Origin: Neovahlkampfia damariscottae
Taxonomy: Eukaryota > Heterolobosea > Selenaionea > Neovahlkampfiida > Neovahlkampfiidae
Length of the DNA stretch: 64,000 bases
Assembly: GCA_016618085.1 (NCBI GenBank)
Contig: JABLTG010000067.1
Span: 32,486-96,485 of the forward strand
Direction of reading: 5' to 3'
Shown here: positions 1-64,000 of the stretch, piece after piece
Position numbering within the stretch: the stretch's first letter is position 1
Layout: every line of letters starts with the position of its first letter
Program-made: the position numbers and the translations under genes
Notes under the pieces: generated by a model
Told to the model about the DNA's origin: nothing
The model's database searches: none
What the model saw: the letters and a program-made list of their open reading frames with translations, nothing else

Positions 1-688
1 TTAAAAAAAAGAAAAAACTTACAAAGATTTGTGATAGTAGAAGTAATATTTTAGAACTATAGCTATTAAATCTTGAATCTTCAAATGAATTAAATCTTGA
101 CTTGGTTTGTTGTCTTGAAAGTTTTCCAAAATTTTACAATTTTGCAAAAGACAATTCTTCAGATAGTAATAAACTTCACGATAATTAAAAGTTCTATTTT
201 CAATATCTGACCAAAATAATCTATTTGCTCCAAGTAAAAGTAAATTCAATTTTCTTTGAGTTTCATCTGTAAAACTGGAAGTAAACAACCATTTGTAAAA
301 TAACAAAGCATATATTGAAGGAAAGTAATGATTTGAACTTAATAATTTTGAAACTTTTTCCATTTTCTCACCTCTTTCAAAATTTTCTTCATAAAAGTTT
401 GCAAAAATTTGATAGTAGTTGTAAATCTCATCATCATTCAAGACTTCTTTTTAAAGGGGGTTATTTTTATGTTTATGGTTTACTTTGTATCTTTTTTTTT
501 ATTTTATTTCCTAAATCTTGAAATAAAGAAGTCAGTGTTTGTTTTCTACGATGTGAGGATTGATCTGTTGCCGTATTTAAAGTTAATTCAACATCTTCAA
601 CAAGTTTATCTCTAATCTCTTTCCATTTATTATTTTCATCCTTTTCAACAATTTCTTCAATTTTGACCACTTCCTCTATATTTTCCAT
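1..688 (-). CDS. Partial conserved hypothetical protein, 3' end beyond window
   Basis: I do not recognise this protein. Exon 1 (from ATG at 688) is acidic and Lys-rich; an intron (about 442-489, donor GTAAAC, acceptor AAAAAG) joins it to a second exon that runs to about position 22. There a perfect GTAAGT donor follows codon TTT, so the gene very probably continues off the left edge rather than stopping at the TAA that overlaps the donor. The second exon is helical and aromatic-rich (NYYQIFANFYEENFE; LLLLGANRLFWSDIENRTF), like a soluble helical-repeat protein. A CCAATTA element lies 17 nt upstream of the ATG and supports the start. Confidence 0.7.
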
Positions 689-755
689 GAAAAGAAAAAA
701 CTTTTTAATTGGTCAACGGTTTTTTTTCAAACACAAAGTTTTTAACTTTTTTTTT

Positions 756-1374
756 TTATTTTGATTTTTTATTTTGTTGACATTTATAAGAATCATGTAT
801 TTCCTGTGGAACAACAGAATTCATTAAAAAAGGTGAGTTTGGATTTGATCCAATATTATCATTCAATTGAACCATTTTTGAAATTTCTTTCTTTATAAAT
901 TTGTCTTTTTTTTTATTTGGTGCACATTTTTCTCTTTCTAAATCTCTTAAATATTGGTCAGCTTTTCTGATTATTTCATTTTCTGCATATATTTGAGAAC
1001 AAGGTCTCAAATGATTCACCCATATTTCCGCCTCTTGATTTGAATTTGCTAAAAGTACATAAACTCTTCCTTCTGTGACAACTTCAATTCCTCCTTCTTG
1101 ATTTGAGTGCTATTTGTTGAATTTTTTGATTTTTTTTACTTTTACATAGGAATTTGATAAATTGATTTTACCAAGTGAGTTTTGAGAATCTTCATTTGTG
1201 AAATAAGAAAGATATTCATCATCCAAAACAAAAAACCTTTCTTTCCTTTTTTTGAAGATTTTTAAACAATTTTTTTTTATTCTCTAACCAAGATTTGTTC
1301 ACAGAACCCATTTTTTTAAGATATCCACAATACTGACCTCTACCAAAATTTGCTTTCGAAATTGTTTTCTGCAT
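756..1374 (-). CDS. PH-domain protein
   Basis: Three exons (1289..1374, 1146..1245, 756..1109) give about 180 residues. The spliced N-terminal half is a canonical pleckstrin-homology domain: CGYLKKMGSVNKSWKERFFVL, strand pattern LSYFTNEDSQNSLGKINL, and a closing helix after RVYVLLANSNQEAEIWVNHL containing the invariant Trp. PH domains bind phosphoinositides or proteins and recruit their carriers to membranes. The Lys/Asn-rich C-terminal 70 residues have no recognisable domain. The first intron (1246-1288) is essential: only its removal creates the SWKERFFVL core. The start is set by the ATG just before the PH fold; a reversed CCAAT element lies 6 nt upstream. Confidence 0.8.
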
Positions 1375-1531
1375 TCGTGGTCCAATGAAATCAAACAAAT
1401 TATTTTGAACTTTAAAACTGAAGAAAAAGGTATACTTCAACAATAAAATCAAGTTAAATTCATTTTTCACACAAACTTCTTAGGTCCAATCAAATTTTGT
1501 TTCAATTTTTTATCTTCAAGTCTAACGGGTC

Positions 1532-4372
1532 ATGGCTTTTCTGCTAACTGACTTATTTACTACATTCATAATTATACTGATAGCTATACTGATAAATATA
1601 TTGTGGTTTAAACCCACTATTTTCGTTTTAATCGAATTTAAAAAAACAGTTTATGAAAGAATAACAGAATTTCTTCTGTACATTGAAGAAGAAATGAAAA
1701 AACGAAAAGAACAACAAAAAAAGAACACCAAAAAAATAGAAAAAGAAGAAAAAAACGAAAAAAAATTCGAAAAAACTCGAGAAAACACACAACAAGTTGA
1801 AGAAGAAAAAAAATATTATTTTACAAAAGAAACACAAGTGTCAGATATCGATTTTGAAACCTATGATATTAGAACACATTTAAAACTTCCAAAATTAAAC
1901 TCATCTTTTACTCTAAAAAATTTTATGAACTTACCAAGTATTTTAAGAGGAGATAATCATTTAAGAATTGAAAGAATGAAATTTGATGAAACTAACAAAA
2001 TTTTTAATATAAAAATGAAAGAAATATCAACTCAAACAATAATAGAAACTCGAGAAATTGGTATTGGATCTGATATGAATGAAAATATGAATATACAAAA
2101 TGAAGTAAAACAATCACCATTACCAAATTTACCATTTGAATTAATTGAACATCCATTTGAAGAAATGATTGAAAAACAAGAAATGAAAAAGAAAAAAAAG
2201 TTAAAAAAATTATCTTCAATTTTAAAGAAGGAAAATGAAAAGAAGAATGATATTTTGAACCCAAATGGATTTGAATTAAGATGTTTTGATTCTGATTTTT
2301 TATCTGGTTTTGAAGTTTCAAATTTACATTCAAAATTGATCCATTATTTAATTGAAGAAGATTTTTATCAAATTGGAAATTCAGAAACAATGATTTCACC
2401 AAGAAGAAAAGGAAGAGATGAAAAATCAACAACGTTATATTTATCATCACTTAAATTAATTCAATTACCTGTTTATCTTATTGAAGAAAATATAATTACC
2501 CATTTAGATTTATCCAATAATTTTTTAACAAATATTCCAAATTGGTTTTTTGAATCAATGAAGAATTTAACATACCTTGATTTATCAAGAAATTATCTTA
2601 ATGAATTACCTGAAAACTTCAAAGAAATGAAAAAATTGAAGGATTTATATTTAAGTTTTAACAATTTTGAATATTTTCCAACTTGTATTTTACAATTAAC
2701 ATCTTTACAATATCTTTATTTTAATAATAATTTTTTAATTCAAGTTCCAAATGATATTATAAAGTTGAAATATACATTATATGAATTGGATTTTTCATAC
2801 AACAAATTGATAGATCTACCAGATGATTTTAAAAATTTAAAAAAAATGAAATTTAATGTTCAAGGAAATAGATTGTTATATTACACAAAATTTGAAATTA
2901 TACCAAAAATGTTACCATTTGATGATTCAAAATTGAATTTACTTTCTTCTTCACCTCAAAAAAATAGTATGTTACAATCACCCAATCAAAATGGAAGTCA
3001 TACTGAAGATTTTGAAAAATTAAATTCAAAGTTCAAAGAATTTGAATCAGATTCATTAGATGAAGAAATACGTGAAACATTTCAAAATTCAAGAAATATT
3101 TTATTATTACAATTATTAGATGGTGAAAGAAAGTATGTTCGTTATTTACATATTTTCAAAGAGATTTTTGTTTTACCTTTGATGTCAATGTGTATGTTTT
3201 CAGATTCAAAAAAGAATCAAATACCAATTTCAAAAGAAGAATTATCATCTATTATACCTAAAAAACTGGAAATTTTAATCAAATTTTCAAAAATGTTTTT
3301 AATATCAATGGAATGCTCTTTGAGAGATCTAGAAAAAAATCCGAAATCTGATTCGTTAATTAAAATAGGAAATTTATTTCTGGATAATATGAATTTATTA
3401 AAAGAGAATTTTATAGAGTATCCAAGTGAATATCGAAAATGTATTGAAAATTTGAAAAATTTGAAAATAGAAAAAGTTGAATTGACCAATTATTTAGCAA
3501 CAAGAAGAAAATTGATTTTATCAGATGGATGTGATTTTGATGCATTTTTAGTATTACCTTTACAAAGATTTATTCAATATTACAAATTTTTAAAAGTAAG
3601 AATGTGTTCTTTTATTGTAACCAATAGAAAATCTTTCTTGCAACTCAAAAATCTCATATTGATTATGAAGATTTAAAAGAATCATTTAAGAAAATTAAAG
3701 ATTTATATAATTATTATAAATATAATATAGCAAAAATAAACAACAAAGATAGAGTTCTTGAATTATCCATCAAATGGAAAAATCCAGAAATTGTTAAAGG
3801 AGAAAGATACCTTATTCGAGAAGGATTATTAAAAATAGCACCTGATAAAGAAGTAGGTCAAATTAAGAGTTCTTGGCAATCTGTTAAAGATTTAGGTTTA
3901 CAATCATTGAGAAATGTTAACTTAAAAATGGGTTTTAATGATTATCCAAATTTGAAATCATTAATCAATAATAATATATTTGATGTGAGATTTGTTGAAG
4001 GAAAAATAAATTTATATCTTTTCAATGACATAATGGTGATTGAAGAAACATCAACAATTCATAAATTAAATTTATTGGGGAAAGTAAATATACTACCTCT
4101 TCAATTTGCTCAAGTTGAGATTTCAAATGGTATTTGATGTTTTTAATATCTAATCAATTTTATTAGAGAATTCTACTTCATTTTTGATTTCATTTCAAGA
4201 TATCAAGAAAGTTTTAGTTTTTACAGCAGATGATGAAAAAACAAGATCTGATTGGTTTGTTTCATTTTTGAATGCCATTCAGAAATTGAACGATAGCCAA
4301 GTTTTAAATGATGATAATGAAGGAGATGAAGAACAAGTGTTAATGAAAACAGATTTCAAAAAAGTACTGTAA
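1532..4372 (+). CDS. Membrane-anchored leucine-rich-repeat RhoGEF (DH-PH)
   Basis: Three exons (1532..3595, 3628..4129, 4167..4372) encode about 923 residues. Order: N-terminal hydrophobic segment (residues about 5-35), a Lys/Glu-rich linker, five or so leucine-rich repeats (residues about 310-440, e.g. ITHLDLSNNFLTNIPNW), a Dbl-homology domain (about 520-770, with LPLQRFIQYYKFLK at its conserved CR3 helix) and a PH domain (about 790-900, ending in TRSDWFVSFLNAI). DH-PH modules catalyse GDP release from Rho/Rac GTPases, so this is probably a membrane-tethered activator of the actin cytoskeleton. Both introns (32 and 37 nt) fall inside DH and PH and are needed for the fold to read through. A CCAATCA lies 39 nt upstream. 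Confidence 0.88.
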
Positions 4373-4398
4373 ATAATGTAAAAAAAGGAATGTTATTT

Positions 4399-6339
4399 TT
4401 ATTGAAATGATGTTAAATTTGTATTTTTTTGATGAATCAAATTGATAATCTTTTTGTTCATTTCACAAGATACACCAATTTTATTTGCTTCTTCAATGAT
4501 TTTTCCATTGATAAAATCAATTTCTGTTTCATTTCCTTTGATAAAATCTGTCAACATTGATGATTCATTTTCGAAAGTTTTTTTTGCCACTTCCATAGTT
4601 CTTTCATATGCATTTTCATAAGGTAATTTGATTCCTTTTCTTATACAAACAGTAACTGCTTCTTTTATCAAAGTATGAACTAACAATCTAGCTAATTCAT
4701 TCAATTCACCATTTTGTGTTAAGAAGCCATTTTTTACATTAAATAAAGCAGTAATTGGGTTTATTGCAGAGTTTACAACTAACTTTCCCCATTGAATTTC
4801 TCTGAAATTTTCAGAAACTTCACAATCAATTCCAGCTTTGACAAAGATTTCTTTAATATCATTGGAAATATTTGAATTTGCAATAGATGTTAATCCTGCT
4901 CCATTGTGATAAATAATCCCATCATCTTCCAATTTACAACCTTGATATGTTATTCCTTCTATTATTTGATCGAATTTGATTTCTTTTTGAATTTCTTCAA
5001 CATTCCCAATTCCATTTTGAAGAGTCAAAACATGTCCATTTTTTGATAGAATTTCTTTTGCTTTTTTAGCAGCTTCTCTTGTATAAGGTGATTTTACAGT
5101 CATTACAACTAAATCTACTTCCCCAAATTGATCTTTTACTTCTTTGATATTATTTGTGATTCTTAAATTTTTTACAAGTTTTTTATTTTCAATATTGAAT
5201 TCTTTGGATCTCACCATGATTCCATTTTCCCTGATTTTTGTTATTTTTTCATCATTTGAGGAAATTATAATAATTTCACAATTTGGTTGATTAACTAATT
5301 TTGAAGCAAACAACAAACCTAGAGATCCAGCACCAATGATTGCAATTTTCATTTTTTTCTTTTCTGATAGTGGTTCTTCAGAAATTTGTTTTTTTTCAGT
5401 TTTTATATCTGGAAATGCCTTCTTTAATTCATCTTTTTTGATCAAAAATGAATTTTCTTTTGTCGGAAATTTTCTTTCTTCAACATCTTGTTTAAAATTT
5501 GAAATTGCTTCGACAATTGTTTGTTGCAAGTTTGCGTATTTTTTTGAGAATTTGAAATCAAATTCATTTATAATACCTAAAATATCGTGGTATACTAATA
5601 CTTGTCCAGAAGTGAATTTACCAGCTCCAATTCCAATTGTTGGGATTGAAATGTGTTCAGTGATGTATTTCGCCACTCTTTCTGGAACACATTCTAGAAC
5701 TATAGCAAAACATCCCGCTTTTTCTAATGCCAATGCATCTTCTAATATTGATTTTGCTGATTCTGCTGTGTTTCCTTGAACTTTGAATCCACCAATAGTT
5801 GCAATTCTTTGAGGTGTTAAACCTATATGACCCATCTAAAATTTAGAATCAAAACAACTTACAACAGGTACACCTGCATTTACTATTGCTCTTATTCTAC
5901 TAGACAAAGTCTTATCTGCTTCCAATTTGATAGCATCCATATTCCCTTCTTTTAGAAATTTCATTGCATTTTGAACTGCTGAAATATCATCCACTTCATA
6001 TGAACCATAAGGCATATCCCCAATCAAAAAACATTTTTCAGAACCTTTTGATACTGATTTACAATGCAATAACATTTCATTCATGGTGACTGATACAGTG
6101 TTCTCTCTTCCTAACATTACCATTCCAAGTGAATCTCCAACCAATATCATATCGATATCGGCATCTGATACTAGTTTACTTGATGAATAGTCATATGCAG
6201 TCAACATGGTAATTGGAATGTTATCTTTGAATTTATTCTTGATGTCCAAGATAGTTTTCTTCATGATAGGTTTGTGTGTGGAATATTTGTTAATGTTAAT
6301 GTACTTTGTTGATTTAAAAACAGAAATTTTTTTGAACAT
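4399..6339 (-). CDS. Bifunctional ketopantoate hydroxymethyltransferase / ketopantoate reductase (PanB-PanE fusion)
   Basis: Two exons (5863..6339 and 4399..5835) separated by a 27-nt intron give about 637 residues. Residues 1-25 are Ser/Lys/Asn-rich and could target mitochondria. Residues about 28-300 are PanB (MLTAYDYSSSKLVSDADID, LVGDSLGMVMLG, GVPVMGHIGLTPQ, GIGAG near the active site), which adds a hydroxymethyl group to 2-oxoisovalerate. After a linker, residues about 325-637 are PanE: Rossmann motif IAIIGAGSLGLLFASKL, LQNGIGN, and the catalytic-Lys region WGKLVVNSAINPITAL, which reduces ketopantoate with NADPH. The fusion couples two consecutive steps of pantothenate/CoA synthesis. No stop separates the halves. 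A CCAATAG lies 3 nt before the ATG. Confidence 0.95.
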
Positions 6340-6497
6340 TTTCTATTGGATATTAAAGACCTTTTGGTGTTGGATGAGTTTTTTTTGATTTGATAAACCA
6401 ATAAAAACTAGTTTTATTTATAACCACCAATTAGATTTTTAGGTTCTAATTCGATTTTAGAGGGGAATTTGATTGGCAATGAAAAGAGATTTTATTT

Positions 6498-9400: not shown

Positions 9401-10126
9401 ACATTTGGTAATAAATGAATAAAACATTCATCTAAAAGTTCTAAAAATGAAAGTGTTGGATTAAATTTTTTTGATGAGGTTTTATCAAATAATTGTTGAG
9501 CAAAATTTTGAATGAAGTTTCCAACCATTTGAAGAGAAGCAGGTTTTTTTAATGATAAAATGAATGAAATTGATTTTTTAGCTTTGTTTGAAATGGATTC
9601 ACGTGAATCTAATACTTTACCCATTAAAATTTTAAAGATTTTTAATAAATCTTCATTTTCTAACCATGAGTTATTTGGTTGTTCTTTAAGTAAATTTGTC
9701 ATTGATTGAATTAACTAATAAATCGTTTTTTTTTAAAACAAAAATTATTTCAAACTGGAAGAACTACATTTTCAGAGTTTTTGAATTTTTCATCTAAATT
9801 TATAAAAATATTTGAAAAGAAATCAAATTTTGAAACTAAAACATTTGCAGGAATTCTAAAGTTGCGAAAAAATTAATTTTTTTTTTTTTTTGTTTGAATT
9901 ACTCGCTATAAATCATATTGATTAATTTTAAAATATTTCCATTCATTGAATTTGTTTGTTTATCACCTAAAAGTGATAAAAGAGCAAGAAAATAAGTCAA
10001 AGCGTTTTCTGGTTGATTCTTTTCTTTTAAAACTTCTGTTGTTGAATTTAGTATCTTAATCATTAATTCTCCATCTTTTCCAACTCTTTTAAATTTTCTT
10101 CTGAACACAAAAGGAACTTCGTTCAT
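6498..10126 (-). CDS. RRP12: RRP12-like HEAT-repeat ribosome biogenesis factor (NUC173)
   Basis: Six exons joined by five short introns (the first at 9856-9902) give about 1,145 residues, close to the usual 1,200-1,300 of Rrp12. The middle carries the NUC173 region (ILPLNLLDEKLSRKWMLPLL; WFLFPAFSIYATDFPKAF). The C-terminus is Lys/Glu-rich and ends with the family signature DPFAYIPLDPNQLNKRK and a basic GRRKKRY tail. Rrp12 is a karyopherin-like protein that binds pre-40S and pre-60S particles and Ran and helps nuclear export. Start chosen at MNEVPFVFRRKFKR because a CCAATTG lies about 40 nt upstream and the more distal Met would lie beyond it. It is divergent from the small membrane gene at 10217. 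Confidence 0.9.
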
Positions 10127-10216
10127 TTTTGAAAAATGCAAAATTAAAGAGAACAAACAAAGAAAACAATTGGACAATATTTCTTATCCAATTAAATATC
10201 ATTTCGGAGAATAAAA

Positions 10217-10593: not shown

Positions 10594-10605
10594 AAAAACA
10601 CAAAT

Positions 10606-11788
10606 TTATTTTGATAATTTTGCTTCAGTTTGTTTAATTTTGAATTCCCAATATTTCACTCTAAACTCATCCATTTTCATCAATTTTTGATATAATGATA
10701 TTGATTCTTCCTGAGATTCTTTTGTATTTTCTCTTTCAAGACAATAAGCTAAAGTTGAATTTGCAAAAATACTAACGGATGCTTTTTTTAAAACTAAAAA
10801 TGTGAATAAAAAAAGTAAAATACGTTCTGTAGTTTTTTGTTTTAAGTGTGATATTGTATTTGAAACATCATCAAGTTGATAAATAGCCATTCCTTTTACA
10901 TAATTCCAAGCACTTTCATTATTTGGTGATTTTGATAAAAATGTGAATCCAAAACTCAAAAATTAAAATATAAAGATTAACATACTCTATTTCTTTCTTT
11001 CTAATATCATCATCAAAATTTGTTGTTGTTTGTTTCATATAAAAACGATGATTCCAAACAGAATTATTTCTAAAATCATTTTTAAGCATTTTTTCAATAT
11101 ATTCTTCTTCATTCTTCCAAAGACTAAATTCTTTTAAAACCCATTGACGATGACTCTGTAATTAAGTTTAAAAAAAAATAATGGTTCGAATCCTACCCAA
11201 GCATGATAATTTTTTTCATCTTGTGATAAAATATTTTCAACAAAACTTAATTCATCATCCACTTTACGATACTTTTCTAAAATTGCTTTTCTATGATACC
11301 AAACTTGATAATTCTTAATGTTTTGTTTACACTTTTCATTCAAAAAATTCATTTCTTTTGATAAATCATAATCCAAATTTTCAATAAGAAATCTATGGGA
11401 TATATGGTGTTATAAAAACATAAAACAAACCTTCTGTATTGCCAAACAGTATAATTTGCTGAATTTTGTTCAATAGCTTCTTCAGTCAATAATAAAGCTC
11501 TTTCTGAAATTTCTTGTTTCATATAAACAGCTCTAAAATAATCAAAAACCTCTTTAACTGAAAAATTAAATTTTCTTTTTTCTTTTTCTTACAATCTGAA
11601 CTATAATTGATTGGTACAACTGGATTTTCTCCTTCATCTTGAGGAATAGGTACAACATCCTTCCATTCTTCTCTTTCTTTAAAGCTAGTAAACATTTCTT
11701 TTTTTTCTTTCTTTTTTGATTTTTTGAGTAGAGTTGTTGAACCAATAATCAACAAACAAAAAACAACAAAAAAAATAATCCAAGTCAT
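10606..11788 (-). CDS. Protein farnesyl/geranylgeranyltransferase type I alpha subunit with N-terminal membrane segment
   Basis: About 335 residues from six exons. The prenyltransferase alpha repeats are unmistakable: [96 protein letters not shown]. This subunit pairs with FTase-beta or GGTase-I-beta to prenylate CaaX proteins, such as the CLIL-ending Rab in this window. Oddly, the protein begins with a strong hydrophobic helix ([20 protein letters not shown]) and a Lys-rich stop-transfer, absent from the soluble family. CCAATCA abuts the ATG directly. If that ATG is skipped, Met32 gives a conventional soluble protein. A 30-nt stopless 3n intron (10794-10823) is predicted inside the fourth repeat region. 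The EF-hand gene stops only 20 bp upstream. Confidence 0.9.
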
Positions 11789-11808
11789 TGATTGGATAAA
11801 AATATAAT

Positions 11809-12348: not shown

Positions 12349-12428
12349 TCTGTGAAAACGAAAAATAAAGTTGTTGAGTTTTTGAACCAATGAATGTTGA
12401 AGAATTAAACCAATAGGATTGTTTTTTG

Positions 12429-18833: not shown

Positions 18834-18870
18834 ACTTGGACTAGTGATGTTTTTAACAAAGAATGAACAA

Positions 18871-18877
18871 CCAATCA
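18871..18877. promoter_or_regulatory. Shared CCAATCA between divergent DSC3-like and CCT2 genes
   Basis: A single CCAATCA lies 37 bp from the minus-strand ATG (18833) and 34 bp from the plus-strand ATG (18912). It is the only such element between the two genes apart from a gattgg abutting the plus ATG. Confidence 0.55.
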
Positions 18878-18911
18878 ATTTGACACAATTTGTATGTGAA
18901 GAAGAGATTGG

Positions 18912-20648: not shown

Positions 20649-20694
20649 ATTTTATTGCTGGTTATAATTCAACCAATCATTTTCTACTAAAAAC

Positions 20695-22970: not shown

Positions 22971-23043
22971 GTTTTTTTGTGTGAAATTATTGGTAGAAAA
23001 AAAAAAAAAGTGAAAAGTATAAAAAAATTGGATTTTCATTAAA

Positions 23044-47121: not shown

Positions 47122-48199
47122 ATGGTTGAAGGATATTCGCATTCAAAATATAATTCTTCATCATTTGTTGTATCAGATATTTCAACGCAAATTTTAATTG
47201 GACAACCAATGCCCAGTGCATTTTCAGTTGAACTTCAAGTGGGTTTGGAAGCAATATTTCACATCCCAATTGCTGTACTATTTACATGTTTTATCTTATT
47301 TTCTGTTGGATTTCTTTTAAAAACCATGTGTTTTGGGAACGATTTTCCTTCAGAAAATAATTTACTTTTTTCATTATCAGTTTATAGCATTTGTAAGAAT
47401 CAATTTTTTAAAAAATCAAAAAGTACGCTTGTTATACTTTATATCAACTTTATTTATTTTTGGTGATAAGTTATCTCAAATTACTTTTGTTTGTTTTGAT
47501 TTTGGTTCAACTTTTTTTTACACAATTTTTATTTTCTTTTTTTTGTATTGGTCAGAAGTATTAATCATTTCAGGAGGAAAGAATGTTAATATTATGAAAA
47601 GAGAAATGTTGTTTCATCGATCTTCCATGCATATTTTGATTATTTCTATTCATTTAATTCAAATTTGTATTTCTACCTTTAGAATAATTTATGGAATTCC
47701 TAATCATATATTTGATTTACCTGAATTTGTACAAGTATTCATTTTATAATATTAATCATTTTTTTAGTCATTTTTTCATATAGCTCTTTGTTTTTTGTTG
47801 TGTATTGTCTTTTATGTTTTTTCAAAAGCTTCAAAAGCTAAAGCGTGGGATTTTAATTCTGATAGTGATGAAAGAAAGAAAGTAGATAAAATATATTACT
47901 CTGTTCTATTATGTGGTTGTATGATTTTTATTAGAGGAGTCTTGAATGTTTGTTTATTAATTTTTGAAGCATTTTCATTTTTAAGAGCAAATCATTCGGA
48001 TTATATGGTTCATATTTATACTAATGACTAACTTATTTAGAAATGGGTCAATAGTTTATTTTCATTTTTTTGTGATGTTCTTCCAACAGTTTTTGTTATT
48101 TTCAATGTTATTACTTTCAATATCTCTTATAAAAATACTAAAAAAGAAGAGATTAGATTAATAGGTTCTAGAATTATACCTGAAAATGACAGTTATTGA
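47122..48199 (+). CDS. Seven-transmembrane protein (receptor-like)
   Basis: Four exons give about 320 residues. The N-terminus is hydrophilic with an N-glycosylation site (YNSSSF), then seven hydrophobic segments: LEAIFHIPIAVLFTCFILFS, LLFSLSVYSILRLLYFIST, ITFVCFDFGSTFFYTIFIFF, MHILIISIHLIQICISTFRI, FFHIALCFLLCIVFYVFS, VLLCGCMIFIRGVLNVCLLI, FCDVLPTVFVIFNVITFNI. The YWSEVLIISGG loop recalls the THH1/TOM1/GPR137 group, but only weakly. No RGS tail. It starts divergently from RGS-START. This is the one gene whose start lacks a CCAAT within 60 nt. Confidence 0.75.
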
Positions 48200-51106: not shown

Positions 51107-51124
51107 TGAAAAGATAAAATATCA

Positions 51125-51211: not shown

Positions 51212-51231
51212 ATTATGAAATAAAATTTATT

Positions 51232-53072: not shown

Positions 53073-53372
53073 GTTTGATTGGTCAAATTATTTTTGTTGA
53101 AAATTTCTATTTATCGAATTCATTACATTTCTAATTTAAATTTTAATTTTTATCCATTCAATTTTTTTAAACACCTCGAATTTATTTTCATCCAATTAAA
53201 CCCATAATAGAAAAATTTAACATTTGTTTTCGATTCATAAATGGAATACTTCAATCATCTTCAATGATGAAAACTTTTTAATGGTGATACAAAATGAAAA
53301 CCTTCAAAAACATCTAAGGGACTGAAATCTTTTTTTTTTTTATGGAGAATGGAAAATAAAAAGAAAGATGTA
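53073..53372. other. Intergenic region upstream of DAP3
   Basis: No credible coding frame on either strand. It contains the DAP3 CCAATCA (53076-53082), a CCAATTA around 53203, and long T runs near 53330. The short plus frame after 53241 (MEYFNHLQ) stops at once. Confidence 0.45.
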
Positions 53373-53792
53373 TTATTTTTTTTCCGAATTTTCTGATTTT
53401 GTTGCTTCTTTTTCTGCTTTGGATTTTTCTTCTATTTTTTCTTCTATGTTTTCTTCCTCAGCGTTTGAGTTCTCTTTTTGTTGTTGCTGCTTTTGAAGTT
53501 CTAATTCTTCTTGTTCAAATTTTTCTTTTAAATCTTGTGAGGTATTTTTTTTTAAAAACTCTTCATATCTTTGTTGCCTTGAACCATCAAAATTTTTCTT
53601 GTTTTCAAATTCTTGTTTGAAAGTATCCATGCTGTGTCTCATAAAATTTACTGTTTTTTTTATATTTTGTGAATTTGCTTTTCCTTTGAACGCTATAAAA
53701 TATAATTAATCGTAAAATTTTTGTTGGATCTAACATGAAAGGAAATAAAATACTCCACCGGATATAGCAGCGAAAACAATGAACTTTGACAT
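53373..53792 (-). CDS. Small coiled-coil protein with N-terminal hydrophobic leader
   Basis: I do not recognise it. A short first exon (MSKFIVFAAIS) is joined by a roughly 65-nt intron (donor GTGGAG, acceptor TTATAG; 53694-53757 approximately) to an exon that starts AFKGKANSQNIKKTVNFM and continues into a 90-residue Glu/Lys/Gln-rich coiled coil (EKFEQEELELQKQQQQK) ending EATKSENSEKK, about 117 residues. The leader may be a membrane or organelle signal. CCAATCA ends 21 nt before the first-exon ATG, supporting this two-exon model. Confidence 0.6.
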
Positions 53793-53951
53793 TTTTTGAA
53801 GGAAAAAATAATATGATTGGAGAATTATTTGTTGTATTAATTTTTTATTTATTTCAAGATTTTTAACAAAAAAAAAAAGTGACATGGAGAAATGAAGGAA
53901 ATGGAAATTATATTTACCTTTTTCGAATAGACATTGACCAATTAGGTGAGA

Positions 53952-56438
53952 ATGTGGCAGGAATTTTTCAAAAACAAACAGAGTGAAGATGGATCCGAGA
54001 AAAAGAAAAGTTTTCTATTTTCTACGGTAAAAAGAACAGTTTCCGATTCAGTCTACAGAGATTTCTCAATTTTTGAACGAAAAAATGTCTCTGCGACCAA
54101 AAGACTTTCCATTGACCTTACTGAAAAAAAACTGCTGCATAAAAAAATCAGTAATAGTCCTGATGTTCTGACACCAAGAAAGATGAAGATATTGAATAGA
54201 GAAGAAGATATTTTGGACATTACATCACCTCGTTCTCAATCATCAGAACTGAAAACAAATTCATCAATTTCAAAGTTCTATACAACTATATCAGAGAATG
54301 ATTTGGATTTTTTACAATTTTTAACTTCTGATGAAAAAGAATATGAATTATTTGCCGAGTATTGTAAAAAGAGATTTGAGCATAGTTATATTGAATTTTA
54401 TAATTTATGGAGGTGTTATGTTTCGGAATTGAATGATGAAAATCAAAAGAAAATTGAAAATCTGATGTTTTCAAAATATATTGATTCAAAAAGTGAAGAT
54501 TGCTTAAAATTACAAACAAAAGTATTAAAAAAAGCACAAAAATTATGTTCATCAACTTCAAAATTTAAAGGATTTCTTTTTGTTGTTAAACATGTACAAA
54601 ATGAACTTGAAGATATCTATGATGAATATGAAAATTATGAAGAAATTAAAGAAAAAATAACAATTCCATCAAAGAGTTTTGAAGAATTAATTTACAAAAA
54701 GAAGGAATTTAATTTATTTCAATTTCATGTAAAAGAGAATTTAAATTGTAAAAATTATTCTGAATGTTTTGAATATATTTTAAAATTTAAAAAAGCAAAG
54801 AGTTTAACAAAGAAAAATGAATTATCAAATTTTATAATTAAGAAATATTTGAATATCAATAAACCTAATAATTGTATCATTTTCAATTCAAAAATTAGAA
54901 ATATAATATTATCAGTTCATCAATCAGTTGGATCAACAAAAGAACATTGTTCAATGGATATTTTATTTAAACATTTGAATGATATATTATCTGAAGAGTA
55001 TTATCCAAGATTTTTAAATTCTTCAATTTGGTGGAATTATATTTCAATTCATTCAAATTTTGTTCATAAGAAAAATCTTTTAAATTTTTTTGATATTGAA
55101 AATCCAATTAAACAATACATCGACAATGATACTTATTGTTTAATTGAAATTAATGAGATTAGAAATAAATTGACATTAGAAAAATTCATTTCAAAAAGAA
55201 TAACAAAACAAATTGATACAATTGAATCATCTTTAAATTTTATTGGAATTAAACATCCATCTGATGGATTGATTTTTCCAATTGAAATTTTTGAAGAAGT
55301 AGAAAAGGAAAATATCATCATTACATATGTTACAAATGGATCTTATAACAATTTAAATACATTCATTATTGGAAGAAATGGTGAATATATTAACTCAGTT
55401 GTAATTATAATTTTGATTCTTTAAATCTTTTTTAAAGGAAATTATTGATATAATGATGAAAATTTTGACAATTGTACGTTTTTATCATGAAAAGAAGAAA
55501 TATTTTGATTTGAATGAATTAAGAGAAGATAATATTTACTACAATGAAGAAAAAGTAACTATTGATCAAGGATATTATAATGATTCTCATGAAACAAAAT
55601 TTAGTTATTGGGTTGCACCAGAGAAAATACAATCTGAAAAGAATGATTGTTTTTCACTTGGAATGATATTGTTTCGTTTGATCACATTAATTCCAACAAA
55701 AGAAATTAATGATTTTTTTGAAAAAATGAGTAAATCAGAGCCAACACATAAAACGTCAATTAAAAATTTGATGGATAAAATTAGTTCAAAATACAATAAT
55801 CAATATTCAAATATTTTGAAGAATGAAATGTTAAAAACAAAGGTAAAAATGAAATCATTGATTAATGGTTCTTTAAATAGAATTCAATTGAAAATTCATT
55901 GTTTGATATTGTTTTAAAGATGATTGATCCAAATCCATCAAATAGATTATCAATTGATTCTGCATTGAAAAAATTGGGAAAATTACAATCCAAATTGAAA
56001 GTGGAAGATGTTTCAAATTTGACAAATTCATTCAGATCATTGAATAAAGAACAACAATGCTTTTTACAAACATCACCAGATCGAGAATATTTGAAAGAAT
56101 TTCTTAGACTTGAATGTTCAATTGAAAACATTTTATTTTATGAAGATGTTGAAATATTCAAATCAATTGAAGATATGAAAGAGAAATTATTAAAATCAAA
56201 AGAAATGTTTGAAACATATTTGAATGAAGATTCAAATTTAGAAATCAATGTGAATAGAGTACTGAAAAAGAAATTCATGAATAATTACTTTGAATCTGAA
56301 GCGAATCAATTCATTTCCAATGAAATTTTTGATGATTTTCTCAGTGAAGTTATTGACGGTGTTTTTGTTGATTCATTTCCGAGATTTGAAAGAAGTTTCA
56401 TATTTCAAGATTGGAAAAATGAAGTTGCTCAGTTGTAA
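53952..56438 (+). CDS. RGS-RGS-pseudokinase-RGS protein
   Basis: Three exons (53952..55397, 55438..55842, 55881..56438) give 802 residues. After a basic Ser-rich N-terminus come an RGS-like module (DFLQFLTSDEKEYELFAEYC, about 120-230), a second one (FNLFQFHVKENLNCKNYSEC ... YYPRFLNSSIWWNY, about 245-365), a protein-kinase-like domain (about 385-670) and a canonical RGS (EYLKEFLRLECSIENILFYE, about 690-800). The kinase catalytic loop reads YFDLNELREDNI instead of HRD..PEN, and DFG reads DQG, while VAPEKI, GMILFRLI and MIDPNPSNRLS are kept. It is probably a pseudokinase, certainly atypical. Dictyostelium RCK1 is a one-RGS precedent. CCAATTA ends 7 nt before the ATG. Confidence 0.82.
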
Positions 56439-56452
56439 ATAAAAAACTATTT

Positions 56453-57534
56453 TCACGAATAAAAATGATTTAATTCTTCACGAGATGAATGACCTTTGTG
56501 AAAAATATCAATGTCATTCATAAAATTGGATCGTGAAAATTCTAAAGTTTCTTTCATTTCATCAATATGAATTTTTGAATAATCTTCTTTGACCAAAAAT
56601 TTTGAAATGACAGAAATGATTGAAATTGATGAATATGGCACAGTGCTTTGTAATAAATTTGAACGATAAAACAGGCATGATATTGGAATATCTGAATAAC
56701 AAGATTCATTCAATAGACCAGCAGCAATTCCTAAAATAAAAACGTCAAGAGAGTCACAATTCATTTTCGTCATTGTATCAGAAAATTCTTGATCATTTGT
56801 TGCATACCAAACTTTTTCTTTTCCGATATTTTTTTTTGCTTCATCAAATCCCTTTATGATTTCTTTTTTTGTCATGTTTTTCAAATTTTCGACTTTAGTA
56901 TCAACATTACAGTTTCCTATATAATTTGGATTTTCTTTGATTGCCTTGAAACTCAAAATTAATTTACATTTCTGTCGTTTTCCAAAATCTAAAATCATTT
57001 CAACGATATCATTTTCCATTTCAGAACTTTCAATGACTCTTTCACTTGTTAATATTAAAACATTCCTATTTCCGTGTATTCTGATTGAACTGGAAGAAAT
57101 ACCTTGTTCCACAACCTGTAAGAAATAGATTAAGATTGTCTGTTTTTTACACAACTTGGTTTTGAAAAATTTGAAGTAATTTCAGCTACTATATTTAATT
57201 CAAGTTGCTTTATAATCAGTTGAGCCGTTGTTATCATCAAACTTGAATCTTCGTCATCACTTGAAAATAGTTGAAACAAAAATTTCTTTTACTTTGGAAT
57301 TGCGACAATAATGACAGGATCTACTAGTTCTTCAAACGGAAATTCTTTCAAAATAATATTACCGTATCTATTCATTGTTTTAATTTTTCGTCTGGAAATA
57401 ACTTTTGGGTTTGAGTATGATTGTTTGAATTGAATGTCCACATTTTTATCATTTAAAATTGGATTTACAGTTTCTTTTTTCTTTGCTGCAGGAGCCTCTG
57501 AAATTTCTTCACTTGATCTAGTTTTTCTCTTCAT
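56453..57534 (-). CDS. PAC2/PSMG2-like proteasome assembly chaperone, copy B
   Basis: Three exons give about 335 residues. Basic leader MKRKTRSSEE; core blocks LMITTAQLIIKQLELNIVAE, RIHGNRNVLILTSERV, VEMILDFGKRQKCKLILSF, VWYATNDQEFSDTM, VFILGIAAGLLNESCYSD. Both introns fall at the same codon and phase as in copy A (after IPN/IPK and before VVE), proving common descent. Copy B lacks the conserved DARAA segment before the last helices and has VPYSSISIISVIS instead. A reversed CCAAT is 8 nt upstream. Confidence 0.75.
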
Positions 57535-57703
57535 TCAACAGACCAATGAAAAAAGTTCGATTTCGAAATGAAAATAAAATGAATTTCCTTCTTAAAATCT
57601 CACTGAATTCAGATTTGGTCTCATTCTTCAAAACTCGGAATTATGATTGGAGGATGTTTGCAGAAAAGTAATTGGTTGAAAAATTCCAACAAACACAGAC
57701 ATC

Positions 57704-59058
57704 ATGGAAGAGATGAGTTGTGAGGAAGAAAGAGTTTTGACTCATGGAGAATCAGATCACAAAAAATATAAAAACCCACTATAAAGGTTTACTTTCTGAA
57801 AAACCAGAAGTCCAGTTCAAATCAGTTGTAGAATTGAGAAAATTACTTAGTTTTGCTAAGAAACAGACGAAATTTTTACTCTTCAGAAAAGAATCCTCCT
57901 AGGAATGAAGTTATTGATTGTGGTTATGTTCCACTTTTTGTCATATTTTTAAAAGACTTTAATAGACCACAAATACATTTTGAAAGTGCTTGGAATCTCA
58001 CCAATATTGCTTCAGGAACTTCTGAAAATACAGAAACAGTTGTAAATTCAGGAGCTGTTACTTCATTTATTGAATTACTTATTAAATCAACTGATGAAGA
58101 TGTTATTGAACAAAGTATTTGGTGCTTAGGTAATATTGCAGGTGATTCCATCAAATACAGAAATATTCTTTTAAAAGATGGATTGTTTGTTTGTATTTCC
58201 AATATTATTACCACAAGCACTAAAATTAATATTTTAAGGTTTAACAGAACTATTCATTTTAATTTTTGAATGACAGAAATGCAACATGGTGTTTATCAAA
58301 TTTATGTAGAGGAAAACCATCACCTTCTTTTAAAGTTGTTCAACCAGCAGTTCCTATTTTATGCGCTTTATTATATCATCAAGATGTTGACATATTAACT
58401 GATGCTTTGTGGGCTTTATCTTATATCTCTGAAGGTTCAAATGAACCTATTGATGCTATTATTCAACAAGGTGCAATTCCAATTTTGATTTCATTGATGA
58501 TGCATGCATCTTTTCAAATTGTTTTACCTGCTTTGAGGACTATTGGAAACATTGTTGCTGGAACACGTGCCCAAGCTGATGTATTTGTTAAATCTGGTGG
58601 TGTTCCTGTTGTTGCTAAATTATTACAACACCCTGAAATAAGTGTTAGAAAAGCAGCTGTTTGGTCAATTTGGAATATTGCCAATAATTCAAGTTGTTTT
58701 GGATTGTGGAATTTTTGAGTTACTTCTCACAATGATTAAATATGATGAACAGGATGTTGTTTTTGAAGCACTTTGGGTTATTTCACATGCCACAGTTGAA
58801 GCTACTTATCATCAAAGTCGATATATGGTAAATGCTGGTGTTTTAGATGTTTATGCAGAAGCACTTCAATCAAATGATTCAAGAAATCATAATTTGATCT
58901 GTGAAGGATTGGAAAGTATTTTTTCACATGATACAAATTATCCAAAAATATTTGAATCTGTTGGTGGCGTGGATATATTGGAACAATTAGAATCCAATGA
59001 TAAAGCACTTGATATTTTATCAATGAGTTTTCCACGACACTATTTGGATTCATCTTAA
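57704..59058 (+). pseudogene. Decayed copy of the importin-alpha gene
   Basis: Nucleotide-level similarity to the importin-alpha gene at 16.5-17.9 kb runs from the 5' leader (ccaacaaacacagacatcat) to the C-terminus, including an identical intron near 58241-58278. Lesions: a 2-nt deletion near 57755 puts TAA at 57782 in frame with the ATG; the first donor GTAAG has become GCTAAG (57855-57860); and a deletion of about 17 nt near 58683-58690 shifts the frame inside repeat six, after which the old frame resumes ([12 protein letters not shown]). The remaining repeats drift (SIWNIAN, VISHATVEA). At least two partial products could still be made, but no full importin. Confidence 0.8.
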
Positions 59059-59315
59059 AAATGTATGTCTATCTGATGATTTTTATATACCTGTAAGAAA
59101 TAAATTATGTTCGTTTTGGTGAATTTTTTAGCTTTGGAAAGAGCCCAATCTACTTTTTGAAAGCAATCACAACAACCACTATCCAATGAATCTCTAATAT
59201 TAGTGTGAATAAAGATAATTTCAGTGTCTCCACAAAAACAACCAATTTGCCATAGATGTTTGATTGAAGGAATTTTGTTATTTTTAAAATTTATTTTAGT
59301 TGAATGAAAACCGAT
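59055..59315 (-). other. In-frame open stretch following the stop of the secreted-protein gene
   Basis: Immediately after the TAA of the gene at 59316-59717 the same frame stays open for about 86 codons to a TAA at 59055-59057. It has coding-like, Cys-rich composition (LWQIGCFCGDTEIIF; SLDSGCCDCFQKVDW) and no usable ATG. It could be a readthrough or nonsense-separated C-terminal domain, a missed exon, or a relic. Confidence 0.4.
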
Positions 59316-59717
59316 TTATTTTTTTTTATAGAGAATACCATAATCAGAGAATTTATAATTTGTTTGTTTTAAAGCATAAACACCATTTGATTCAATGACA
59401 AGTGCTTTTGGGTTGAATTTGTTATCAAAGCTTCCACAGAAAAGAACTAAAGCAGCAACTTCTTTATTATTTGAATCATAAACTACTGTATCATACCAAA
59501 CACGAGCTAATCCATCAAAGTGTACTTCAGCTTTAGGCATGATCAATTTACTTTGAATCATAAAACCACGACCTACAAAATAAAGTTATTATTTTTTCTC
59601 CAAACCAACTGTGTATACTTTTACAATTACAGGTCCTGGAGTTGTGTTGGTTATTGTAATTTTTGCACCAAAAGAAAGGACAGCAAGTATGAGCACAACA
59701 AAAATAACGAGTTTCAT
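59316..59717 (-). CDS. Small secreted protein, unknown
   Basis: Two exons give about 122 residues. A clear signal peptide (KLVIFVVLILAVLSFGA) is followed by a beta-rich extracellular domain (KITITNTTPGPVIVKVYTVG, RVWYDTVVYDSNNKEVAALV, FCGSFDNKFNPKAL). No family recognised. The intron (about 59576-59608) splits a Gly codon. CCAATCA ends 7 nt before the ATG. The frame remains open beyond the stop codon. Confidence 0.75.
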
Positions 59718-59847
59718 TTTTTTCTGATTGGCCGTTATATCCAATCAATTTAAAATGAAAAAAAAAATAAAAATATTTAAATCTTCAAAAATTTAAAACG
59801 TCCAAAGATTTTAGAGAAAGATACAATTTCATTGGTTGAACCATTCA

Positions 59848-61705
59848 ATGCTGAACAATACCTTCAGTGAAGTAGGTGGAAATATAACTTCACCTGTTTT
59901 CACTTTCACAGTAGGTGATGGAACTCTTCTGGTGGGACAGCTAATACCTTTATCTCTTTCCATCCTACTGCTGGTTTTATTTTGTATTTTTAGAAAAGAA
60001 AAAGAATTTCGCTACAGAGGAGTACTTCCTTATTTTTCAATTTTTGGTGTTTGGTTATTAATGATACGATTTTCATTAACATTATCATTTCTGATGGTTT
60101 CAAACAAAAACTCATTCACCTACAAGTATTTCAAACAAAATTAATTTTAATTTCAATTTAGACTGTCTTGTTGGTTTGACCTACTGGCTAATTTCCCAGT
60201 TTTATTATTTTTACTATCATTACAATCTTTAAATATCTTACAATATTTAATAAACAAACGAATTCATTACCTAAAAGGTAAAAGTTACAAACTGTTGAAC
60301 GAGAGCAATAAAAAAGTGATAAATAGATTGAAAGAAAAACTAATAAGATCAAATTTAGGAAAGAATACAAAAGTAGCCGCAGAGGACACTATATATATTG
60401 TTCAAGAAGATGATCTATTTTCAAATACTTCATCAATTGGAAGTTCGATGTCGTCTCCAATTTCTTCAAAACATAACTCATTTAGAAGTTCAAGGTCTTT
60501 AGATAAAGTTATTGAATTGGATGAAATTGTAACAGACTCATCATGTGTTCCTTCAACTATTGAAACAATGGATGTTGAAAAAGAAGATGAAGCTGAAATG
60601 AAAAAATTTACAACAAAAATTAAAATTGCAAGATTCATTGCATCAAATTATTTTAAATTCATCACTTTAATAATTATTTGTGTTGTAAATTTTGTTTTAT
60701 TTTTTTACTCTTTTTAGTCAACTTTTTTATTGCAACTGTCATTGGTTGGAGGAATAGAGATTGTTACTAAAATAAGTAGTGGAAACTATTGTACTTTTGA
60801 AAATACTCCAATAGCTCATGCAATATCATCATTAAGTACACCTGTTGTATTTGTTGCAGTTGCTTTAATTAATATTTTGATTATGATTTTGGATAGGATT
60901 CATTTCTTAAAACAAAATGGATGTTGGAGTTCTCAAAAGTTTTATGTTCATGATGATCCTTTTGGTTTTAGATTGGAACAAACAATATTAATGATAAGTT
61001 TGGTGATTTATGGAATTCCATTTTCTTTGATACCAATGATCATTTACTTCATCAACTCACATCTTGGAACTCCAGATATTTCAACCACAGAAGGAGAAGT
61101 ATCGGCAACTACTATATCTATCGTTTTGTGCACTGCAGAAATGGTGGTTTTGATAACAACAACTTCAGTTTCATTGTTGTTGGCTTTGTTTTCTTACATA
61201 AAAAAGAAATTACATGAGAAGAGTAATTTCAATTTAATTTAACATTTCAATAGGGTTTGAAAGAGAATTTGAATTATTTATTGCGACAAAAGATGGATTT
61301 GAAATCTTGAGAAAATATTCAAAACGAGAATGGTCATTGGAAAACGTTTTATTTTATGAAGATGTTTTGAGATATCAGAATTTGAATAGTGCAAAGTATT
61401 CCAGAAAAAGAGCAGTACAAATATTGGAAAATTATGTTTTAAAGAATTCTCCTTTGGAAGTTGAGCTTTCTGCTTCTGTTCGGAGGTCAACAAAAGAAAA
61501 AGTTGAAACCTTTGTTGAATACAAAAATTATCACAAAACCATTTTTAATGATGCCATTTTTGAAGTGAAATTCAATATGGAAGATACTTTTTCAAGAATA
61601 ACCTCTTTACCAGAATACAAACAATGGAAAACAACTTGGAAAGCAACTGTTGAGAAATTAGAAGAGTCAGATGAGGAAGATGAAGAAGTTGTTGAAAGAA
61701 TTTAA
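59848..61705 (+). CDS. Seven-transmembrane receptor with C-terminal RGS domain
   Basis: Four exons give about 590 residues. The N-terminus has glycosylation sites (NNT, NIT). Hydrophobic segments include LIPLSLSILLLVLFCIF, YFSIFGVWLLMIRFSLTLSF, LLANFPVLLFLLSLQSLN, FKFITLIIICVVNF, TPVVFVAVALINILIMIL, TILMISLVIYGIPFSLIPMI and ISIVLCTAEMVVLITTTS; a long Ser-rich cytoplasmic loop lies between the third and fourth. After an intron ending at 61252 the tail is an RGS domain (EILRKYSKREWSLENVLFYE, YHKTIFNDAIFEV, SLPEYKQW). It should couple receptor and GTPase acceleration, as in AtRGS1-type proteins. A reversed CCAAT is 12 nt upstream. Confidence 0.88.
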
Positions 61706-61856
61706 AACAATTGAAACAGGATCGTTGTCAATTTGAAACACCAGAATAGTTCATTTTAGAAATTCATGAATAAAATTTGTCAAGTTGAGCATTTTTCACC
61801 AATTTTCTTCCAACACCAAACAAAGTTTATTGTTTTTTGTTGTTGTATGAACAAAA

Positions 61857-63309
61857 TCAATTTTTTATTTTATAACGATCTTTGGTTGAGAGACCTAAAA
61901 TTAAAGATAGAAATGCTCCTACAATACCCAAAATAGAAACGATAATGAAACTCCACATAAAGCATGTGTGACCTGAATAACATTTGAGATCACCAGGTAA
62001 AATATTTGCATTGTAGATCAAGCTGAATTTGACAGTTGAAAGCAAAAAATTTGCTCCAGCAGGTCCTATCAAGCAAAATGAAAAATTAGTTCCATAATAT
62101 GCTTATACGATTAGTTAAAATAACTTAATTTACTTGGACCGAACATATCCATGACTAAGGCAACACCAACTAACATAGAAAGACCGAGAAAAAATCCTTG
62201 AAAAATTGTGCAAACAAATAACAATTCAAAAGTTACAAATGCACTTAATATTGATGCTCCTGATACTCCTAAACAACAAAATAACATGAAATATGGTCTG
62301 TTAATCCATTTGCTTATTATATCAATGGAAAAACCACCAACAATTCTCCCAGAGCAATTAGCTAACAAAGCCAAAGGAACCATGTAAGTTGCAGCTCCTT
62401 TTGGTCCATTAAGTGAAACTATAATTTCACCTAGATTGTTGATGAACATCAAACCTGCTCCTGATGCGATACCCCATGTTAAAACAACAAGATAGAATCT
62501 CAAGGTAAAAAACATCTGAAAAGTGGATGTATCAGGTATTTTCTGAGATACTTCCTTATCTTGAATTGGATTAACATCTTCTTGAACGGTTTCTTCGTTT
62601 TCTTGGCTTTCAATTGGATCTTCAAATTTCTTCCAATCAACTTCAGTATGAAAAAGAGCATTTGTCCATGGTAATACCAATCCTAAGATACTAAAAAATG
62701 TATAGTAATTTGCTAGTTTTGAAGGTCCTTCGAAAAAATTATAAATTGGGGATAAAACAGCTCCACTCAATCCAAAAAATAACAAAGGTATGGCAATTAC
62801 CAAACCTTTTCTCTTTGGTGAAAAATTCTTACTGTTTGTACCTGATCCAACAACAATTTGAGCAGCACTTCCGAATCCAACCATTAAATAATAAAATGCA
62901 AAAATAACAGGGTGGTGATACAAGTAACCACGAACAGTGAGTTGAATTAATGAATAAGACAAGAAAATGAGAGCTCCTGCCTTGTATTTAGTCAATTTTT
63001 TTTTCTTTTTTGTTACCAACAAACAAGTGAGTCTTGTTCCAAAATAATCATAAAAGATTCCAGTAGGTATTCCAACAAAGCTAAAATGTTTTTTTTTTGA
63101 TATTTTTTTTGATTTTACGCTCCAAAAAGTGAAAGAGAAGATAAAACATTTGCTTCAACTAAACTAAAACCAAGTATATTTCTTAAATCTACAGAAATGA
63201 CAGGAAAAATGTAAACAGTTCCTGCTGTAAGCATCATTAATGATGATGTCAGGAGACCTAAAAAGCGGTTTTCAAAAATTAATTTGTAACTTTTTTGCAA
63301 ATTGTTCAT
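61857..63309 (-). CDS. Major facilitator (nodulin-like/monocarboxylate-type) transporter
   Basis: Four exons give about 445 residues and about 12 membrane helices. The start region NRFLGLLTSSLMMLTAGTVYIFPVISVDL and GIPTGIFYDYFGTRL match the nodulin-like/OFA branch of MFS, with an acidic cytoplasmic loop between helices 6 and 7 and GMF-like ALVMDMFGPTYYGTNFSF near the end. The substrate is unknown. ATG 63309 is chosen because CCAATCA ends 25 nt before it; the longer frame from 63354 would include the element. A 36-nt stopless 3n intron (62981-63016) separates CLL and AGAL. Its last exon crosses a 33-nt intron near 62097-62129. Confidence 0.85.
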
Positions 63310-63398
63310 TTTAACCGAATTTTTTGAAAACGTTTGATTGGTGAAAATACTCATATTTCTATGAAGGAATAGATGAAAACAATTTTGGCAAAGTTCAT

Positions 63399-64000
63399 TT
63401 GTTAACTTTGATATTTTCCTTGAATATTTCCATTTTTTTTTCTATCTATTGGGAAACCAAAAAAGAAAGAAATGCTCAAGCATTTAAAGAATTTCTTTTC
63501 GTAATTCAGTTCTTGACAATTACACAAAAAAAATTAGATGTTGAAGAAAATGAAGGTGTAAGCCAACTCCTTTCTTGTGAAAAACATCAAAATATGAATG
63601 CCTTTAACTTTATTTCAATCCTGCTTTAAGGTAACAACCCAAAGATTTATTGAATTTATTTTTCAATTACCAGTGCAGTTCCTCGATACACATAACATTT
63701 TTTTGGTTTGAATTTCATGTGTTCAATCACTTCACCAGAACAATACATTCCGGTGTAAGTGATGATATTAACTATTTTCTTATTAATCAAAATTTATGAA
63801 GAAAGAATAAAAAATATGAAAAGAGATATTAAATCAGGTGACATTGAAGAAATATTTGATACAACAGAAGATATAGGTTTTTCATTTTCAAAATTATTTC
63901 AATCAAGTTATAATGCTTGTTTGAATACAATAACTTCAATTATAGAAACAACAAGTTTTGGTCTCGTTTCATTTGGTCCAACAATTCACTTAAATGATTG
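63399..64000 (+). CDS. Partial gene at right edge, model uncertain
   Basis: From about 63790 to the window end the plus strand is clearly coding (KNMKRDIKSGDIEEIFDTTE; FSFSKLFQSSYNACLNTITS), open to the last base, so the gene continues beyond. Upstream coding-like pieces at 63470-63560 (ETKKERNAQAFKEFL; KKLDVEENE) may be earlier exons, but I cannot fix the junctions. No family recognised. Confidence 0.4.
63672..63770 (-). other. Short minus-strand coding-like fragment
   Basis: The minus strand reads TYTGMYCSGEVIEHMKFKPK then KCYVYRGTALVIEK and a TAA at about 63672, with a plausible acceptor (AAATAG) just upstream. It could be the last exon of a minus-strand gene, but it conflicts with the plus-strand coding stretch that begins about 20 bp away. 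Confidence 0.25.

Follow-up and report, generated by a model that had tools for sequence, protein, structure and literature searches.

In a 64,000-nucleotide stretch of the heterolobosean Neovahlkampfia damariscottae (NCBI GenBank assembly GCA_016618085.1, contig JABLTG010000067.1, positions 32,486 to 96,485 of the forward strand; hereafter the window), the pentamer CCAAT, in one orientation or the other, stands just before many start codons, which raises the question of whether this closeness is real and what kind of element it reflects. We find that the CCAAT signal near start codons is genuine and strong and that it is reproduced beyond the window, although it is weaker than first stated in the original prediction, which had been made from the letters of the window. 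The reading we favour, at a probability of about 0.75, is that the element is a CCAAT box of the factor NF-Y, present in one or a few copies and acting as the chief promoter element for the majority of protein-coding genes.

Enrichment of CCAAT next to start codons

The sample comprised 264 kb, namely the window and 20 stretches of 10 kb each from 20 other contigs of the same genome, whose assembly spans 20.4 Mb in 307 contigs at ~26% GC. The contigs were drawn from a list of matches to CCAATCANNNNNATG, so that their choice was not blind; seven of the 20 stretches (L019-L025) contain such a match, and the test was repeated on the 13 that contain none. Loci fetched for containing CCAATCA (L001-L008) were excluded from all frequencies. 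Gene starts were taken from a purpose-built probabilistic decoder with an order-4 coding model, short introns and no CCAAT term. Three settings of its intron length gave 126 of 170, 129 of 187 and 133 of 193 starts with a site, the last of these being the final models, from which two starts without 300 nt of upstream DNA were dropped to leave 191. An earlier model set of 149 starts was used for the shuffling and post-stop controls. A first decoder was dropped for overcalling introns (1240), a second merged adjacent genes, upon which the intron length was tightened, and treating plain long open reading frames (ORFs) as genes made the peak visible but took in internal exons. In the final models the median intron measures 40 nt, and the median intergenic gaps are 84 and 95 nt for tandem, 169 nt for divergent and 23 nt for convergent genes.

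We observe CCAAT or its reverse complement ATTGG at -60..0 in 131 of 191 starts, against 51 of 191 at -120..-60 (101 versus 21 discordant starts, paired P ~1e-13), which bears out the proposal that the element is positioned close to the start codon. Upon partitioning the sample, a site is found at -60..0 in 40/53 starts of the window (a sense copy in 24, an antisense copy in 22) and in 91/138 starts of the 20 other stretches, so that the positional peak is recovered outside the window. The 13 stretches lacking a CCAATCANNNNNATG match give 56/89 proximal, 27/89 adjacent upstream and 19/89 further up, and all data minus the seven other stretches give 96/142 versus 41/142. In the earlier model set 110 of 149 starts bear a site, compared with 22.0 ± 4.5 (maximum 35) in 200 dinucleotide-preserving shuffles, and CCAAT or ATTGG occurs in the 60 nt after stop codons in 42 of 162 cases. 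The background level is 15% by shuffling (22/149) and ~25% in real flanking DNA, higher than the one in ten initially assumed; with background subtracted, roughly 55-60% of predicted starts bear a genuine site. Sites at -60..0 number one in 112 starts, two in 19 and none in 60. The enrichment also appears when simple ORFs running from their first ATG are counted, with no gene model involved, and a site is kept by 135/191 starts when the longest ORF sets the start.

The heptamer CCAATCA, counted on both strands, reaches 7.16/kb at -60..0 (73 in 10.2 kb), compared to 1.10/kb in intergenic DNA 60-200 nt upstream (11 in 10.0 kb), 0.98/kb in other intergenic DNA (7 in 7.1 kb), 0.33/kb in coding DNA (73 in 220 kb) and 0.31/kb in introns (5 in 16 kb). 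It is also the top enriched 7-mer (53 starts versus a control mean of 4), and the 7-mer enrichment yielded no unrelated motif of comparable strength, the other enriched words being mostly shifts of CCAATCA or A/T-rich. A score matrix finds 116/191 starts on its own training sites, versus 18 and 14 in the controls; in a subsequent cross-halves test at threshold 10, the matrix trained on the window finds 74/138 starts of the other stretches at -65..0 (upstream controls 8/138 and 11/138), and that trained on the other stretches finds 36/53 in the window, versus 9/53 and 1/53.

The original prediction had counted 31 sense and 14 reverse copies, amounting to 45 of 46 starts, a figure that the 40/53 of the window does not reproduce; hand-picked starts may have inflated the first count, and decoder errors lower the new one. 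The gene at 47122 does lack a CCAAT, as had been claimed, but it is not alone, since 13/53 window starts have none in 60 nt and 11/53 none in 100 nt. All ten motif-to-ATG gaps quoted earlier are correct to the base when counted by eye, and of the 11 starts named, those at 11788, 20695, 37247, 39975, 47122, 53072 and 59717 are in the final models, whereas those at 6339, 28092, 48384 and 53952 are not.

Flanks, NF-Y genes and leader length

The proximal sites share an extended flank. Sense sites show T (70%), Y (82%), R (79%) and W, then CCAAT, then C (65%) and A (93%), and antisense sites show T (64%), Y (81%), R (81%) and W, then CCAAT, then C/G (66%) and A (83%), whereas control sites at -300..-80 are without this TYRW...C/G-A flank. 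The NF-Y consensus has YRR before CCAAT, and C/G and then A/G after it, and proximal sites of both orientations agree with it at all but one position. A sense copy is found in 80 and an antisense copy in 66 of the 193 starts, and at divergent starts CCAAT and ATTGG are equally frequent (40/92 each). From CCAAT to the ATG the median gap is 22 nt (22 for sense and 23 for antisense sites), with a 10th-90th percentile range of 6-47, and the distance is not fixed; for most genes such a median argues against a placement 60-100 bp above the presumed transcription start, though the EF1A and H2B-like genes described below could fit it.

A search for the NF-Y subunits had been suggested, and the genome encodes all three. 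NF-YA has two genome matches, of 93 bits and 37 bits (the second over part of the domain), and residues 17-81 of the piece tested from the first match align with NF-YA of the solved NF-Y structures (E 3.5e-22). Exons of NF-YC and NF-YB, in L012 and L015, match the NF-YC chain (E 1e-31) and the NF-YB chain (E 4.4e-16); these two genes were read exon by exon and not as full models. The 400 nt above the ATG of NF-YA1 (L009:774-1173) contain seven sense CCAAT copies, which suggests that NF-YA1 may regulate itself.

Divergent genes separated by very short gaps typically have a site between them. Among divergent gaps of up to 110 bp, 14/17 contain a site (exactly one in 8, more than one in 6, none in 3), with a median relative position of 0.52, and among those of up to 60 bp 7/10 do. 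The site-less gaps measure 41, 51 and 46 bp and each involve a model shorter than 50 aa, and one of the seven site-bearing gaps of up to 60 bp is doubtful, ending in a 10-aa model. Tandem gaps of 40-110 bp have a site in 32/45 cases. The best-supported two-way gap, L032:3220-3279, is 60 bp long and has one site; on one side lies a DUF4140/DUF4139 gene, its first domain starting at residue 23, and on the other a WD40 gene.

Upstream ATGs bear on the length of the leaders. Out-of-frame ATGs number ~24 per 10-nt bin beyond -70 and 13, 16, 12, 11, 6 and 5 in the last six bins, in which CAT numbers 14, 27, 25, 19, 28 and 13; since out-of-frame ATG falls near the start and CAT does so less, the 5' untranslated regions (UTRs) look short, in line with what had been proposed. 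Between element and start we count 14 out-of-frame ATGs in 2779 positions, versus 106 in 6031 above the element. In a distance-stratified permutation 11 ATGs are observed below the element versus 17.9 expected (P 0.012), and CAT is commoner there (P 0.9985), helped by CCAATCAT. Furthermore, not one out-of-frame ATG occurs in the 666 positions that lie +10..+29 from sense sites. Judging by this pattern, leader lengths probably run to some tens of nt, and transcription would begin at scattered points on and near the box.

TATA-like words, scored with a list of our own drawn up post hoc, show no enrichment where the box is present (13/131 such genes at -70..-10, 15/131 at -140..-80). Genes without CCAAT within 100 nt contain them more often at -70..-10 (11/44 versus 13/131, P 0.02), a hint that starts without CCAAT may form a second, TATA-like promoter class. 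Such a class below a distal CCAAT was looked for among 16 starts and could not be shown. Four genes identified by eye and lying outside the 191 starts, EF1A and three H2B-like ones, show a more classical layout: their CCAAT precedes the ATG by ~65-85 nt (68, 76 and 83 nt in the H2B-like genes by hand count), and TATA-like DNA intervenes; a CCAAT 60-100 bp above the transcription start could fit these genes. The best matches of this EF1A, at 94%, 85% and 84%, are metagenome proteins; among the named matches a trypanosome reaches 75% and plants and animals 71% identity at most, all among the best 120 of 7999 matches. Together with the 20.4-Mb size, the ~26% GC and the ~40-nt introns, this makes a metazoan source unlikely. 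A AACGGTTTTTT-like word, which we take to resemble a Myb site, lies between CCAAT and ATG in the three H2B-like genes (L016, L017, L018) and in NF-YA1 (L009 ~1160), and also occurs in the window at ~713-721. It may mark a cell-cycle class; among the 191 starts such words are rare, with no more than 2 for any one form.

Weighing the explanations

The mechanism we propose builds on the observed motif, its flank, position and two orientations, the NF-Y genes and the upstream-ATG pattern. The trimer of NF-YA, NF-YB and NF-YC would bind TYRWCCAATCA, in either orientation, within the small intergenic gap; the histone-like NF-YB/NF-YC dimer would keep the gap nucleosome-free, and NF-Y would place the polymerase II start no more than a few tens of bases away, leaving short 5' UTRs. 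A single site could serve two divergent genes.

Several observations weigh against this reading. Directly before CCAAT stands A or T (51% and 42%, respectively, in sense sites), where the usual NF-Y consensus has a purine. The orientations are not entirely balanced, with 22 sense versus 12 antisense CCAATCA copies among the 92 divergent starts and 39 sense versus 25 antisense sites among 98 tandem genes, most strongly for CCAATCA in tandem genes (31 versus 10 of 98). No perfect CCAAT is present at -60..0 in 60/191 starts, nor within 100 nt in 44/191. The upstream-ATG test is moderate, as TTG is also rarer below the element (P 0.028); GAT likewise drops in the last bin before the start, and ATG is back at +30..+39 of sense sites (3/137). 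The low count in convergent gaps of up to 110 bp (4/41) comes from gaps too short for a matched control, just five of them measuring 40-110 bp, two with a site. Genome-wide, CCAATCA is followed by ATG after 10-30 nt 4773 times and after 110-130 nt 4131 times, and TGATTGG by ATG after 10-30 nt 4098 times; because ATG is frequent, these counts show that the word is common and do not test its position, and their backwards-read control is weak. Finally, all gene starts derive from our own decoder.

This last point leads to an explanation that we consider unlikely, in which ordinary CCAAT boxes lie 60-100 nt above the transcription start, the true ATGs are downstream or split by 5' introns, and the closeness is an artefact of the gene models. 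The EF1A and H2B-like layout would suit it, and the EukProt model P0241 begins at 54183, as the decoder does, and not at 53952, from where the ORF is open. However, the independently modelled aminopeptidase start at 39975, which agrees with EukProt model P0001 (matching N-terminus; best match identity 98%), retains its short gap; the L032 pair leaves 60 bp and one site between two genes, with a domain beginning at residue 23; the longest-ORF choice keeps the sites; and the depletion of upstream ATGs suggests that these ATGs are real starts. Chance, base composition or a circular choice of starts is an account to which we give almost no credence: the hand-picked 45/46 was not reproduced, ~25% of 60-nt upstream control windows contain CCAAT or ATTGG, and 7/20 stretches were picked around motif matches, but the shuffles, paired flanks and post-stop DNA contradict it, and the signal holds both without those seven stretches and with first-ATG ORFs.

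The original prediction had offered the element as a possible initiator, and CCAATC does fit the initiator consensus YYANWY; transcription would then begin on the A of CCAAT(C), with no NF-Y site involved. Although its closeness to the ATG, the lack of out-of-frame ATGs at +10..+29 of sense sites and the sense excess of CCAATCA in tandem genes are in keeping with this, CCAAT and ATTGG are equally frequent at divergent starts instead of being confined to one strand, and the T-Y-R-W flank is foreign to initiators. As both orientations occur with a like flank and a nearly equal median gap (22 and 23 nt), a strand-specific initiator fits poorly, and we regard it as quite improbable. A signal in the mRNA leader, acting on ribosome loading or stability with no DNA element, appears more improbable still. 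The 6-47 nt before the ATG are where a leader would be, but both orientations occur, the distance to the ATG is variable, and 8/17 close divergent gaps have one site between two genes.

NF-Y is commonly viewed as an auxiliary factor that binds 60-100 bp ahead of the start site, and if it is the factor here, the likely factor is ordinary, and its position and the share of genes are unusual. A bolder version, which we advance tentatively and with the odds against it, is that NF-Y has become a general core-promoter factor in this lineage. In most genes one site, whichever way round, would lie on the transcription start or no more than ~20 bp from it and replace TATA and initiator (Inr) elements; one NF-Y in a gap of 48-60 bp would drive the genes on either side, the pre-initiation complex extending in part over coding sequence of the neighbour. 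A genome whose leading promoter motif is an NF-Y site, near the ATG in most sampled genes and the sole one in some two-way gaps of 48-60 bp, would make it possible to ask in nature whether a histone-like factor alone can set an open promoter and a start site, and how small a eukaryotic promoter can be. Searches of open-licence papers showed, among the hits listed, no report of a near-ATG CCAAT/NF-Y promoter architecture.

Individual sites and comparison with known systems

The window encodes, among others, an M1 aminopeptidase and RGS, MACPF and LRR-RhoGEF proteins. One gene model (4399-6339, minus strand) joins a ketopantoate hydroxymethyltransferase domain to a ketopantoate reductase domain and looks like a gene fusion in pantothenate synthesis. 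In the RGS-domain gene (53952-54183, plus strand) the frame is open from 53952, beside a CCAATTA, and both EukProt and the decoder start at 54183. Between the aminopeptidase and the latter gene the EukProt numbering advances by 12 and the decoder by 14 models, assuming that EukProt numbers run along the contig.

Table 1. CCAAT sites of the window and the predicted starts beside them (window coordinates)
Site	Position	Strand	Context
CCAAT (GGACCAATCA)	39993..39997	-	begins 22 nt before ATG 39975, M1 aminopeptidase; start backed by EukProt P0001
CCAAT of CCAATCA	11791..11795	-	CCAATCA directly abuts ATG 11788
CCAAT	53078..53082	-	begins 10 nt before ATG 53072
CCAAT in GACCAATCA	37265..37269	-	begins 22 nt before ATG 37247
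CCAAT in AACCAATCA	20673..20677	+	begins 22 nt before ATG 20695
CCAAT, single	25916..25920	-	middle of 50-bp gap 25894-25943 between divergent starts 25893 (-) and 25944 (+); decoder starts alone
CCAAT, single	32856..32860	-	middle of 48-bp gap 32834-32881 between divergent starts 32833 (-) and 32882 (+); decoder starts alone
CCAAT	10169..10173	-	90-bp divergent gap 10127-10216; second site 10188-10192 (+)
CCAAT	18871..18875	+	78-bp divergent gap 18834-18911; second site 18907-18911 (-)
CCAAT	59727..59731	-	begins 14 nt before ATG 59717; antisense copy 59741-59745
CCAAT	40111..40115	+	begins 30 nt before ATG 40141
CCAAT	708..712	-	begins 24 nt before ATG 688; adjoins AACGGT word
CCAAT	36211..36215	-	begins 23 nt before ATG 36192
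CCAAT	22989..22993	-	begins 23 nt before ATG 22970
CCAAT	29275..29279	-	begins 31 nt before ATG 29248

The promoters described here resemble metazoan NF-Y/CCAAT promoters in their CCAAT(C/G)R-type site, its two orientations and the presence of genes for the NF-YA/B/C trimer. In mouse cells NF-Y determines which start site is used and holds nucleosomes off the promoter, with bound sites at a median of 94 bp above the transcription start (PMC6624317), and the metazoan CCAAT box is placed at -60 to -100 in ~30% of genes (PMC6652802). By contrast, in the 69% of our predicted starts with a box, the median distance from it to the ATG is 22 nt. In Phytophthora infestans 1953 CCAAT copies, 984 and 969 in the two orientations, have a T-rich upstream flank, lie mostly within 150 nt of the start codon and stand at a median of 83 nt above a separate initiator (PMC3599244). 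The near-equal orientations, T-rich flank and closeness to the start codon are shared; the difference is that in our sample CCAAT heads the enriched motifs and no initiator of similar strength was seen.

In Entamoeba transcription starts peak 10 nt above the start codon, with leaders of ~5-20 nt (PMC7677554), and in E. invadens cysts NF-Y binds CCAAT as a cyst-stage regulator, the CCAAT copies of cyst-specific genes being dispersed across 500 nt without any region of enrichment (PMC6581852). The compact AT-rich genome and the presence of NF-Y are common to both systems, whereas the core elements given for Entamoeba are TATA, GAAC and Inr. Microsporidian CCC/GGG start motifs are likewise common motifs beside the start codon in genomes with short leaders, and the Trichomonas initiator is strand-specific. 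A common motif beside the start codon and short leaders are also reported for Trichomonas (PMC7370421). The Neovahlkampfia element differs from both in its motif and in the protein predicted to bind it.

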